The translations under genes were made by a program, and so were the position numbers. From Tahibacter harae (GTDB lineage: Bacteria; Pseudomonadota; Gammaproteobacteria; Xanthomonadales; Rhodanobacteraceae), in NCBI RefSeq assembly GCF_024437735.1, contig NZ_JANFQO010000005.1, positions 62,001 through 126,000 of the forward strand: DNA of 64,000 nucleotides. Direction: 5' to 3'. The first letter of the stretch is position 1. Each line of letters begins with the position of its first letter. The notes beneath the pieces were generated by a model. The model was not told the origin of the DNA. It saw only the letters and a program-made list of their open reading frames with translations, and searched no databases. Shown one piece after another: positions 9,868-16,850 of this stretch.

Positions 9868-10716
9868 GTGATCAGCATAGTCCTGCCAGCCAAGAACGAA
9901 GCCGCGGCGCTGCAGGGCGTGCTGCCGCGCCTGCGCGCCGCCCGGCCGGACGACGAGATCATCGTCGTCGACGACGGTTCCAGCGACGACACCGCGGCGG
10001 TGGCCCGCGCCGCCGGCGCCCGGGTCGTGTCCTCGCCGTATTCCATGGGCAATGGCGCGGCGATCAAGCGCGGCGCCCGCGCCGCCCGCGGCGAGGTCAT
10101 CGTTTTCATGGACGCCGACGGCCAGCACGACCCGGCCCACATCGAGCGCCTGCTGGCGCGCCTGGACCAGGGCTACGACATGGTCGTGGGTGCGCGCGAC
10201 TGGTCCGGCCAGGCCGGCGTCGGCCGCGGCCTGGCCAATGCGCTGTACAACCGCCTGGCCAGCTGGATGACGGGCCTGCGCATCCAGGACCTTACCTCGG
10301 GCTTCCGCGCCGTGCGCGCCGAGCGCTTCCGCGAATTCCTGCACCTGCTGCCGAACGGGTTCTCCTATCCGACCACCAGCACCATGGCCTTCTGCCGCAG
10401 CGCCTATCCGATCGCGTTCGAGCCCATCGCCGTGGCAAAGCGCATAGGCAAGAGCCATCTGCGGCCGCTGCGCGACGGCGTGCGCTTCCTGCTGATCATC
10501 TTCAAGATCGCCACGCTGTACTCGCCGCTGAAGCTGTTCCTGCCGGCCAGCCTGGGCTTCTTCCTGCTCGGCGTGGGCTATTACGGCTATACCTTCGCCA
10601 CCCAGCACCGTTTCACGAACATGAGCGCGCTGCTGTTCAGCGCCAGCGTCATCATCTTCCTGATCGGGCTGGTGTCCGAGCAGATCACTGCGCTGACCTA
10701 CCGGCGCGACGGCTGA
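9868..10716 (+). CDS. GT2 glycosyltransferase, polyprenyl-phosphate hexose transferase type
   Basis: The start is a GTG at 9868 with GGGGAG upstream. The 282-residue protein has a GT-A fold N-terminus with VVDDGSSDD (nucleotide-binding) and FMDADGQHD (DxD metal-binding) motifs. It ends in two hydrophobic helices in the last 80 residues. This layout fits dolichol/polyprenyl-phosphate sugar transferases (DPM1/ArnC-like), which load a sugar onto a lipid carrier at the inner membrane. It is the first gene of the sugar operon and ends 9 bp before rfbF. It may use the CDP-sugar made downstream or a common UDP/GDP-hexose; the donor cannot be read from sequence. Confidence 0.85.
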   Translation: MISIVLPAKNEAAALQGVLPRLRAARPDDEIIVVDDGSSDDTAAVARAAGARVVSSPYSMGNGAAIKRGARAARGEVIVFMDADGQHDPAHIERLLARLDQGYDMVVGARDWSGQAGVGRGLANALYNRLASWMTGLRIQDLTSGFRAVRAERFREFLHLLPNGFSYPTTSTMAFCRSAYPIAFEPIAVAKRIGKSHLRPLRDGVRFLLIIFKIATLYSPLKLFLPASLGFFLLGVGYYGYTFATQHRFTNMSALLFSASVIIFLIGLVSEQITALTYRRDG

Positions 10717-10725
10717 GCGGCGCGC

Positions 10726-11496
10726 ATGAAGGCAGTGATACTCGCAGGCGGACTGGGCACGCGCATCGCCGAAGAGACGCATCTGCGGCCCAAGCCCATG
10801 ATCGAGATTGGCGGCAAGCCGATTCTCTGGCACATACTCAAGATCTACTCCAGCCACGGCATCAACGACTTCATCGTCTGCCTGGGCTACAAGGGCTACC
10901 TGATCAAGGAGTATTTCGCCAACTACTTCCTGCACATGTCGGACGTGACCATAGACCTGCGCAGCAACAGCATGGACGTGCACCACAAGCACGCCGAGCC
11001 CTGGCGCATCACCCTGGTCGATACCGGCGAGCACACCCAGACCGGCGGCCGCCTGCGCCGCGTCGCCGAATACCTCGACGGCGGCACCTTCTGCTTTACC
11101 TACGGCGACGGCGTGTCCGACGTGGACATCGGCGCGGAACTCGCCTTCCACCGCAGCCAGGGCGGCCTGGCCACGGTCTGCGCGGTGCAGCCGCCGGGCC
11201 GCTTCGGCGCGCTGGACATCGACGGCACCCGCATCACCCGCTTCGCCGAGAAACCCCAGGGCGACGGCACCTGGATCAACGGCGGCTATTTCGTGCTCGA
11301 ACCCGGCGTGCTGGACTACATCGCCGGCGACGACACGGTATGGGAACGCGGCCCGCTGGAGGCGCTGGCCCGCGATGGCCAGCTTTCCGCCTATACCCAC
11401 GGCGGCTTCTGGCAGCCCATGGACACAGTGCGCGACAAGGCACGGCTGGAAGAGCTGTGGCAGAGCGGCGCGGCGCCGTGGAAGCGCTGGACGTGA
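10726..11496 (+). CDS. rfbF: Glucose-1-phosphate cytidylyltransferase
   Basis: The 256-residue enzyme makes CDP-glucose from glucose-1-phosphate and CTP. It carries the nucleotidyltransferase signature LAGGLGTR followed by RPKPM in residues 6-25, and the RfbF-specific [13 protein letters not shown] and INGGYFV segments. CDP-glucose is the entry point to CDP-linked 6-deoxy and 3,6-dideoxy sugars. Its stop overlaps the GTG start of the next gene (GTGA at 11493-11496), which enforces coupled translation. Confidence in RfbF over RfbA is high because of length and the C-terminal segments. Confidence 0.95.
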
Positions 11497-15470: not shown

Positions 15471-16105
15471 AGATCGTCTTCTGGGGCGGTACCGGCCAGG
15501 CGAAGGTGCTGCGCGAGGCGCTGGCCGGCCGGGCCGAGCTGCTGGCGGTGTTCGACCGGCGCGCGCTGGCCTCGCCTTTCGCCGACGTGCCGCTGTACGT
15601 GGGCGAGGCCGGACTGGAGCAGTGGCTGCGGGAACGCGGCGGCAGCCGCGGCCTGCACGCCGCCGTGGCCATAGGCGGCGCGCGCGGCCGCGACCGGCTG
15701 GCGCGCATGGACCAACTGGGCGCACGCGGCTTTGCCCTGCCGGAAATCGTCCACCCGCGCGCTTTCGTCGCCGCCGATGTGCGCCGCGGCGAAGGCTGCC
15801 AGATCCTTGCCCTGGCCGCGGTCTGCACCTGCGCCGTGCTGGGGCGCGGCGTGATCGTCAACACGCGCGCCTCGGTCGATCACGACTGTGTGATTGGCGA
15901 CGGCGCGCACATAGGCCCCGGTGCCGTGCTCGCCGGCGAGGTGCAGGTCGAGGCCGGCGCGTTCATCGGCTCAGGCGCGGTGGTGCTGCCCGGCCGCCGC
16001 ATAGGCGCCGATGCCGTGGTCGGCGCCGGCGCCGTGGTCACCCGCGATGTCGCGGCCGCCGGCGTGGTCGCCGGCAATCCCGCCCGTCCGCATTCCAAGG
16101 CATGA
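15467..16105 (+). CDS. NeuD/PglD-family sugar O/N-acyltransferase
   Basis: The 212-residue protein starts with a small Rossmann-like region (MKIVFWGGTGQAKVL) and continues from about residue 95 as a left-handed beta-helix of hexapeptide repeats, ending in the typical VVAGNPAR segment. PglD-type enzymes acetylate 4-amino groups of UDP- or GDP-linked sugars. Placement directly after the aminotransferase suggests it acylates the newly formed amino group. The acyl donor is inferred to be acetyl-CoA. Confidence 0.9.
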   Translation: MKIVFWGGTGQAKVLREALAGRAELLAVFDRRALASPFADVPLYVGEAGLEQWLRERGGSRGLHAAVAIGGARGRDRLARMDQLGARGFALPEIVHPRAFVAADVRRGEGCQILALAAVCTCAVLGRGVIVNTRASVDHDCVIGDGAHIGPGAVLAGEVQVEAGAFIGSGAVVLPGRRIGADAVVGAGAVVTRDVAAAGVVAGNPARPHSKA

Positions 16106-16112
16106 TGGCTCC

Positions 16113-16850
16113 ATGACTACCGACAAAGATCCCGCCGCCGCCTTCGAGCAGGAAGTGGCGCAGAACATCCGCAGCCTGCGCGAAGACCGCGAACTCAAGG
16201 CGCGTTCCGGCGAATGGCTGCGCAGCACGCTGCCGCACCGCTATTCCTACAATTTCCGCTGGATGGGCCGGCCCATCATCCAGTACCCGCAGGACATGAT
16301 CGCGATGCAGGAGATCCTGTGGCAGGTGCGGCCGGACCTGATCGTGGAGACCGGCATCGCCCACGGCGGCTCGCTGATCTACTACGCCTCGCTGTGCGAA
16401 CTGATCGGCCACGGCGAAGTGCTGGGCATAGACATCGACATACGCGCGCACAACCGCGCCGCGATCGAAGCCCATCCGATGTTCCGCCGCATCGCGCTGC
16501 TGCAGGGCTCCAGTACCGACCCGCGCATCGTGGAACAGGTGCGCGAACGCGCGCGCGGCAAGACCGTGCTGGTGGTGCTGGATTCCAACCATACCCACGA
16601 ACACGTATTGGCCGAGCTGGAGGCCTATGCGCCGCTGGTGACTCCGGGCAGTTATTGCGTGGTGTTCGACACCGTCATCGAGGATCTGCCGGCCGGGCTC
16701 TATCCGGAGCGGCCCTGGGACGTGGGCAACAACCCCAAGACGGCCGTGGCCGAATTCCTCGCCGCACATCCGGAGTTCGAAGTGGACGCGGACACGGAGG
16801 CCAAGATTTCCATTACCGTCGCCCCCGGCGGCTACCTGCGCCGGCGCTAG
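16113..16850 (+). CDS. CmcI-like (cephalosporin hydroxylase family) methyltransferase
   Basis: The 245-residue protein matches the CmcI/rhamnosyl-O-methyltransferase family, with LIVETGIAHGGSLIYYA as the SAM-binding motif I, VLGIDIDIR, and VLDSNHTHEHVL as a metal-site region. Despite the family name, members are mainly SAM-dependent O-methyltransferases found in glycan loci. Its probable role is decoration of the sugar or finished glycan. The ATG at 16113 is 7 bp after the previous stop. It is the last gene of the plus-strand run and converges on the flippase-like gene with a 57-bp gap. Confidence 0.85.
   Translation: MTTDKDPAAAFEQEVAQNIRSLREDRELKARSGEWLRSTLPHRYSYNFRWMGRPIIQYPQDMIAMQEILWQVRPDLIVETGIAHGGSLIYYASLCELIGHGEVLGIDIDIRAHNRAAIEAHPMFRRIALLQGSSTDPRIVEQVRERARGKTVLVVLDSNHTHEHVLAELEAYAPLVTPGSYCVVFDTVIEDLPAGLYPERPWDVGNNPKTAVAEFLAAHPEFEVDADTEAKISITVAPGGYLRRR

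Follow-up and report, generated by a model that had tools for sequence, protein, structure and literature searches.

What sugar does a run of biosynthetic genes lodged among the pilus genes of Tahibacter harae assemble, and to what is that sugar attached? The genes lie in a 64,000-nucleotide stretch of this organism (positions 62,001 to 126,000 of contig NZ_JANFQO010000005.1), referred to here as the window, and form an operon on its plus strand. In our judgment, which we would put at a probability of roughly 0.6, the operon makes a kansosamine-class hexose, that is, an N-acylated 4-amino-4,6-dideoxy-3-C-methyl sugar linked to cytidine diphosphate (CDP) and probably also 2-O-methylated, and this sugar is put on the type IV pilin. 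The chemical core of this answer is a CDP-linked 3-C-methyl-4-amino-4,6-dideoxy sugar, a prediction that has good support. The observations behind it are the gene content, the protein families, their active-site residues, the co-occurrence of the genes in other genomes, their collinearity with a gene cluster of the Mycobacterium kansasii type, and the modeled fold of a neighboring glycosyltransferase; from these we infer which reactions take place, on what carrier and with what stereochemistry, where each methyl group goes, and that the pilin is the target.

The predicted route would start with RfbF, a glucose-1-phosphate cytidylyltransferase (10726–11496; TIGR02623, 466 bits, cut-off 300) that would form CDP-glucose from CTP and glucose-1-phosphate. 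It would be followed by RfbG, a CDP-glucose 4,6-dehydratase with a GTG start (11493–12581; TIGR02622, 453 bits, cut-off 278), giving CDP-4-keto-6-deoxyglucose. Both proteins score far above their NCBIfam equivalog cut-offs, and the best solved relative of RfbF is the cytidylyltransferase 1tzf (397 bits), with the runner-up at 78 bits. An RmlC/NovW-like 3- or 3,5-epimerase (12578–13138; PF00908, 188 bits) would then invert C5 (and C3). This protein falls just under its own equivalog cut-off (TIGR01221, 145 of 156 bits), consistent with a relative that acts on a different substrate; its best solved relative is NovW (2c0z). His65 and Tyr135, which together with Asp171 we take to be the catalytic residues of RmlC, are invariant in all 83 aligned rows, as is an RG[MLIV]H motif at the histidine; Asp171 is kept in 81, the other two having gaps. 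(These rows, like the 106 of the methyltransferase below, include repeats of some genomes.) Residue 141 is more variable, being Tyr in 45 rows, Trp in the operon protein and 24 others, His in nine and Phe in four, and might tune epimerization at C3 versus C5.

The next enzyme is an S-adenosylmethionine (SAM)-dependent sugar C-methyltransferase, probably acting at C3 (13135–14358; PF08421, PF13489, PF08484). It has the zinc-binding, SAM and C-terminal domains of the 3-C-methyltransferases of the TylC3/TcaB9 type, and would transfer the methyl group of SAM to C3. Its YHEH motif aligns with that of TylC3 and is kept in 106 of 106 rows. The 4-keto group would then be converted to an amine by a DegT-type aminotransferase (14355–15470; PF01041, 399 bits), in which the lysine that binds pyridoxal phosphate (PLP) lies in the motif FSFHGTKTF. 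This protein is below the NCBIfam equivalog cut-offs (the best being LegC, 288 of 420 bits), and its best solved relatives are the perosamine synthases 3bn1 and 3dr7. N-acetylation or a similar step would fall to an N-acyltransferase of the NeuD/PglD/VioB type (15467–16105; TIGR03570, 174 bits, cut-off 161), nearest among solved proteins to the perosamine N-acetyltransferase 4ea7; the two perosamine enzymes between them produce a 4-amino-4,6-dideoxy sugar and add its acyl group. The last gene encodes a methyltransferase of the RMNT/CmcI family (16113–16850; PF04989, 318 bits), predicted to O-methylate the sugar, probably at O-2. Its sole solved relative is CmcI, and it scores 108 bits against the rhamnosyl O-methyltransferase profile NF045824, below the cut-off of 400.

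These gene identities, their order and their coordinates had been given in an earlier, sequence-only reading, and were confirmed by profile scans and from the DNA, as was its description of the aminotransferase as a lysine-containing DegT protein. Its pathway logic, leading from CDP-4-keto-6-deoxyglucose through epimerization, C-methylation and transamination to N-acylation, is likewise supported as a prediction by the families, the active-site residues and the co-occurrence. The six genes from rfbF to neuD are tied together by five 4-base overlaps, one GTGA (at the start of rfbG) and four ATGA, again as described. The further claim that these overlaps enforce stoichiometry finds no support; they point at most to translational coupling, which they do suggest. 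The flanking genes are set off by short gaps: the CmcI-type gene begins seven bases past the end of neuD, and nine bases separate rfbF from the end of an upstream gene for a DPM1-like GT2 glycosyltransferase (9868–10716, plus strand; PF00535, with C-terminal membrane segments recognized by eye). Both of these genes lay within the coordinates of the earlier reading, yet played no part in its reasoning, which also missed the probable O-methyltransferase step.

How widespread is this gene set? Among the best 80 loci of at least 578 relatives of the C-methyltransferase, some of them cut by contig ends, RfbF (at least 50% identical) is found in 61, RfbG (at least 40%) in 49, the RmlC-like epimerase (at least 35%) in 67 and the CmcI-type protein (at least 43%) in 36. 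DegT (at least 45%) is found in 22, all of which have the PLP lysine in an FHGTK or FHGSK motif, and NeuD (at least 45%) in nine. For a tree of DegT, 90 rows of at least 280 residues were reduced to 61 by removing near-copies and rows more than 99% identical. In this quick tree, which has long branches elsewhere, the 29 rows that are at least 55% identical make up a single clade (SH-aLRT 98) that includes all five mycobacterial rows at 61–64%; a sixth mycobacterial DegT, at 45%, falls outside it. The 28 other loci of the clade, with L134 and L068 counted as one genome, have RfbF in 27 cases, RfbG in 24, RmlC in 27, the C-methyltransferase in 27, CmcI in 20 and NeuD in 13. The neighborhood search that the sequence-only reading had proposed as a check reveals a conserved co-occurrence. 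RfbG was not found in the L034 and L068 loci, and the available piece of L069 contains neither RfbF, RfbG nor RmlC. On a Brachyspira hyodysenteriae plasmid (L137, 9207–14802), RfbF, a radical-SAM protein in the place of RfbG, an RmlC-like protein, the C-methyltransferase, DegT (56%) and an acetyltransferase are followed downstream by several ATP-grasp and rhamnan-synthesis genes. A Peteryoungia plasmid (L135, 1350–4865) has, beside its DegT-bearing set, a second, divergently transcribed set of RfbC, C-methyltransferase, RfbG and cytidylyltransferase. A literature search joining CDP-glucose, C-methyltransferase, aminotransferase and glycan retrieved nothing.

Is such a sugar already known? N-acylkansosamine is 4,6-dideoxy-2-O-methyl-3-C-methyl-4-(2-methoxypropionamido)-L-mannose, and to our knowledge sugars of this type come solely from mycobacterial glycolipids. 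In M. kansasii, the lipooligosaccharides (LOS) IV–VII bear fucose and N-acylkansosamine (PMC4403928). The published gene table lists MKAN27435 (GT2), 27440 (cytidylyltransferase), 27445 (epimerase/dehydratase), 27450 (rhamnose epimerase) and 27475 (methyltransferase), all without M. marinum orthologues, and deletion of MKAN27435 abolishes LOS-IV to VII; tags 27455–27470 are absent from the table, which lists neither a C-methyltransferase nor a DegT protein (PMC4403928). Among 198 genomes of the genus, sampled evenly from a larger set, five encode a DegT protein 61–64% identical to that of the operon. Three of them (L130–L132) contain the published primer sites for MKAN27435, both exact in L132, with one mismatch in L130 and two in L131, and have RfbF, RfbG, RmlC, C-methyltransferase and DegT in the order and strand of the operon, the proteins being 54–70% identical (DegT 62–64%). 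After DegT come an ATP-grasp protein, an NAD epimerase/reductase and a TylF-type methyltransferase, as identified by a Pfam scan of L132, so that four genes stand between RmlC and the last methyltransferase, in agreement with the gap between tags MKAN27450 and MKAN27475. A fourth genome (L133) has the same five genes with the ATP-grasp gene and a CmcI-type gene, while the fifth has RfbF, RmlC, C-methyltransferase, CmcI and DegT close together in a different order. We infer that the mycobacterial five-gene set would make kansosamine. The earlier claim of a new sugar does not stand, given that N-acylkansosamine is known and that loci matching the M. kansasii cluster share the five genes and their arrangement; the product, though rare, probably belongs to a known class, an outcome that the sequence-only reading had itself named as a refutation.

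Which part of the sugar is held constant, and which part changes? Among sister cassettes, for which one member of each new gene cluster was scanned, the genes after the C-methyltransferase vary. Seven cassettes, those of Luteimonas terricola and Rhodanobacter sp. Soil772 among them, have DegT and NeuD, four, including that of Dyella choica, have DegT with a formyltransferase and WbqC, and two have DegT with PhyH, a methyltransferase, a GNAT protein and WbqC. Four others are without this DegT and have an NAD-dependent reductase/epimerase, a second methyltransferase and CmcI; a further one (L033) has a DegT protein of 29% identity, and three have a gene of uncertain family at the place of the reductase. 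That N-acetyl- or N-formyltransferases come after DegT supports an amine as its product. In a 37-row tree of the C-methyltransferase, the states "with DegT" (18) and "without" (12) require seven changes, at least five of them on well-supported branches, and 26 of 500 label shuffles gave a number as low. With seven changes on this tree, the cassettes seem to share a C-methyl base on which one C4 module has repeatedly replaced another, a pattern that the earlier reading had missed, as it had the seat of the operon in a conserved pilus locus.

The surroundings of the operon suggest where the sugar may go. The locus reads pilC, pilB, GT2, the operon, a membrane protein gene, a second GT2 gene (GT2b), a GT-C gene and two pilin genes, with PilR- and PilS-like genes farther downstream. 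The left edge of the variable island is marked by a PilB-type ATPase (7889–9613, minus strand; PF00437, 483 bits, plus MshEN), next to a PilC-type T2SSF protein (6600–7886; PF00482). Past the operon, all on the minus strand, come an LPG_synthase_TM-like membrane protein, possibly a translocase of lipid-linked sugar (16908–17807, start estimated; PF03706, 21.7 bits, below the cut-off of 33.4), and GT2b, a candidate CDP-sugar transferase (17783–18661; PF00535; relatives of 56–81% in L169, L170, L172 and L187). A GT-C protein with TPR repeats (18690–20639), predicted to be a pilin glycosyl- or oligosaccharyltransferase from the GT-C fold of its model, stands next to the genes for two type IV pilins (20739–21260 and 21371–21892; both PF00114 and PF07963, the start of the second estimated from its N-methylation motif). 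The gene for a 1017-residue protein with a spermidine-synthase domain (22281–25334, minus strand; PF01564) separates the pilin genes from the PilR/PilS-like ones. GT2b (at least 45%) occurs in 11 loci, including that of the operon and with L049 and L169 on one contig. A homologue of the membrane protein, 33–66% identical in the other ten loci, adjoins it in all of them, in cassettes with or without DegT. A GT2 enzyme would load the sugar onto a polyprenyl carrier, from which the adjacent GT-C/TPR enzyme, whose model matched OST/PMT/ArnT in a second structural look, would pass it to the pilin. In six loci there are two tandem GT-C/TPR genes, about 31–35% and 48–52% identical to the GT-C of the operon locus, which hints at separate transferases for two sites or two substrates.

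How fixed is this setting? Of the 37 genomes in the family, 34 encode the GT2 found here at 9868. In the 34 regions compared, each up to 20 kb, PilB lies within 450 bases of this GT2 in 23 and at 1.4–2.4 kb in nine, while no PilB is found within the region in two; thus, PilB is within 2.4 kb in 32 of 34, whichever cassette is present. By comparison, RfbF-RfbG-RmlC-C-methyltransferase occurs in eight of these regions, the DegT orthologue in six and the GT-C protein in 22, and a genome-wide search found the DegT orthologue (at least 74%) in six of the 37 genomes. The GT2 was accordingly rejected as a dedicated part of the operon, being a core pilus gene across the family. The operon itself appears, from these comparisons, to be an exchangeable cassette within the type IV pilus locus. 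A different DegT protein (35–38%) lies between PilB and GT2 in many genomes of the family, as in eight of the nine regions with the wider spacing; L180 and L192, which have the C-methyl cassette, show it too. It may belong to a separate sugar or modification system.

Several observations weigh against a kansosamine-type sugar on the pilin. On a Pacificitalea manganoxidans plasmid (L136, 6206–10484), RfbF, RfbG, RmlC, DegT (59%) and a transferase occur without a C-methyltransferase, a cassette that probably makes an unbranched CDP-4-amino-4,6-dideoxy sugar, so DegT alone is no proof of a branched one. On the C-methyltransferase tree, the mycobacterial rows stand apart from the operon protein, grouping with L036 and L047, which have no DegT, and with L055 and L135, which do. 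In L130–L132 there is no match to NeuD or CmcI, with ATP-grasp and TylF instead; because of this difference, the acyl group and the O-methyl group may differ from those of the M. kansasii sugar, and the operon is called kansosamine-type rather than an instance of the same pathway. Nor did the authors of the M. kansasii study ascribe the genes to kansosamine, relating MKAN27435 instead to the fucose found on the same lipids (PMC4403928). On the pilus side, the GT2 beside rfbF, as a core gene, may act on a different sugar; a Foldseek search by itself matched no PDB structure to the GT-C/TPR model at E ≤0.001, its top rows being mostly TPR proteins; and no data on pilin glycans of this species came to light.

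Could the CDP amino sugar be made for lipopolysaccharide or another surface glycan instead, the position in the pilus locus being incidental? Several sister loci have a Polysacc_synt-family flippase (a 15-member cluster, of which one was scanned) and more glycosyltransferases after the cassette, the mycobacterial version of the set sits in a glycolipid cluster, and the related plasmid sets have no pilus genes in the stretch seen. We nevertheless regard this as unlikely, since the variable segment is bounded by pilB and GT2 on one side and by GT-C and pilA on the other, with the PilR/PilS-like genes downstream. Moreover, 19 of the first 22 of the best 80 C-methyltransferase loci have at least one of GT-C, PilB and the pilus GT2, compared with two of the other 58, even if these 22 are mostly close relatives and their shared pilus setting does not amount to many independent observations. 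It is similarly doubtful that the methyl group is on C5, or that another stereoisomer is made, in which case the sugar would not be kansosamine-like and may be new. The epimerase is nearest to NovW, whose partner NovU methylates C5, and stereochemistry is unreadable from sequence. Yet among solved structures the C-methyltransferase is nearest to TylC3 (4rv9) and 5t64, both named as 3-C enzymes (the latter a "sugar 3-C-methyl transferase"), and to TcaB9, which methylates C3; the collinearity with the M. kansasii-type cluster also favors a 3-C-methyl, 4-amino product.

A pathway to a CDP-3,6-dideoxyhexose or a yersiniose-type sugar, with the deoxygenase encoded elsewhere, would share RfbF and RfbG with this operon, but is very improbable. 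In the 5.99-Mb assembly (99.5% complete), profile searches found one copy each of RfbF, RfbG and the C-methyltransferase above cut-off, the last being the only PF08421 protein of the genome. There are six DegT-family matches, two of them strong: the operon protein, which is nearest to perosamine synthase, and a second aminotransferase on another contig (C8:67608; motif FSFQYNK, 42% identical to the operon DegT over the best segment). Both have lysine at the PLP position, and no RfbH, in which histidine replaces this lysine, was found among them, the four weak partial matches not having been inspected by residue. The RfbH-dependent route was rejected for this reason, and the earlier report of no RfbH is upheld. 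A dTDP route borrowing these enzymes was rejected as well: RmlD- and RmlB-like genes do exist on contig C23, but the genome has no second C-methyltransferase of the family, and its only one is in the operon with RfbF and RfbG.

If a kansosamine-type sugar is indeed made here, the operon provides a compact gene set for it, the mycobacterial pathway having been only partly listed and not assigned (PMC4403928), and CDP-sugar chemistry is widened to C-methylated amino sugars. Tentatively, at somewhat less than even odds, one may go further: the type IV pili of Rhodanobacteraceae and their relatives would bear CDP-derived 3-C-methyl sugars that differ at C4, where each cassette exchanged between pilB and pilA would install its own group (N-acetyl, N-formyl, other N-acyl or hydroxyl). 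The swaps would create a combinatorial code of pilin glycans, perhaps under pressure from pilus phages, with the sugar of this operon as a kansosamine-type protein glycan. Pilus loci that vary one sugar carbon by gene swaps would then be a natural experiment in surface-glycan diversification. That pilus loci harbor a swap-prone family of CDP-sugar cassettes, including one of kansosamine type, is a more interesting result than the new sugar originally claimed.

How does the operon compare with known systems? The LOS cluster of M. kansasii (MKAN27435–27475) has the same order from RfbF to DegT and the same predicted class of product, but differs in its ATP-grasp, NAD epimerase/reductase and TylF genes, where NeuD and CmcI are found here, and in its glycolipid rather than pilus context. 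The perosamine synthases and the N-acetyltransferase 4ea7 also aminate and N-acetylate a 4-keto-6-deoxy sugar at C4, on a GDP carrier and with no C-methyl group. CDP-vinelose of Azotobacter vinelandii, a CDP-linked 6-deoxy-3-C-methyl-2-O-methyl sugar with a 4-hydroxyl rather than a 4-amino group, represents the product class expected of the sister cassettes without DegT; a literature search on vinelose found no paper. Sibirosamine, the 3-C-methyl-4-methylamino-4,6-dideoxy sugar of sibiromycin, is similar in sugar structure, but belongs to a natural product and has an N-methyl group; a literature search returned no title on its pathway. The route to CDP-6-deoxy-L-altrose in Campylobacter jejuni HS:41 shares a CTP-using cytidylyltransferase, a CDP-glucose 4,6-dehydratase and an epimerase, which acts at C3 and C5 of CDP-4-keto-6-deoxyglucose; it continues with a C4-reductase and a mutase and involves no amine, and the accessible part of the report does not mention C-methylation (PMC12369002). 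As this part describes a route without RfbH, the earlier statement that known CDP pathways use RfbH has to be given up. For the pilus side, the available portion of a report on Pseudomonas aeruginosa describes TfpO and TfpW, which glycosylate pilin with O-antigen units or D-arabinofuranose (PMC11841053). The likeness there is one of context: an accessory glycosyltransferase gene that is tied to the pilin, varies between strains and is linked to phage evasion (PMC11841053).

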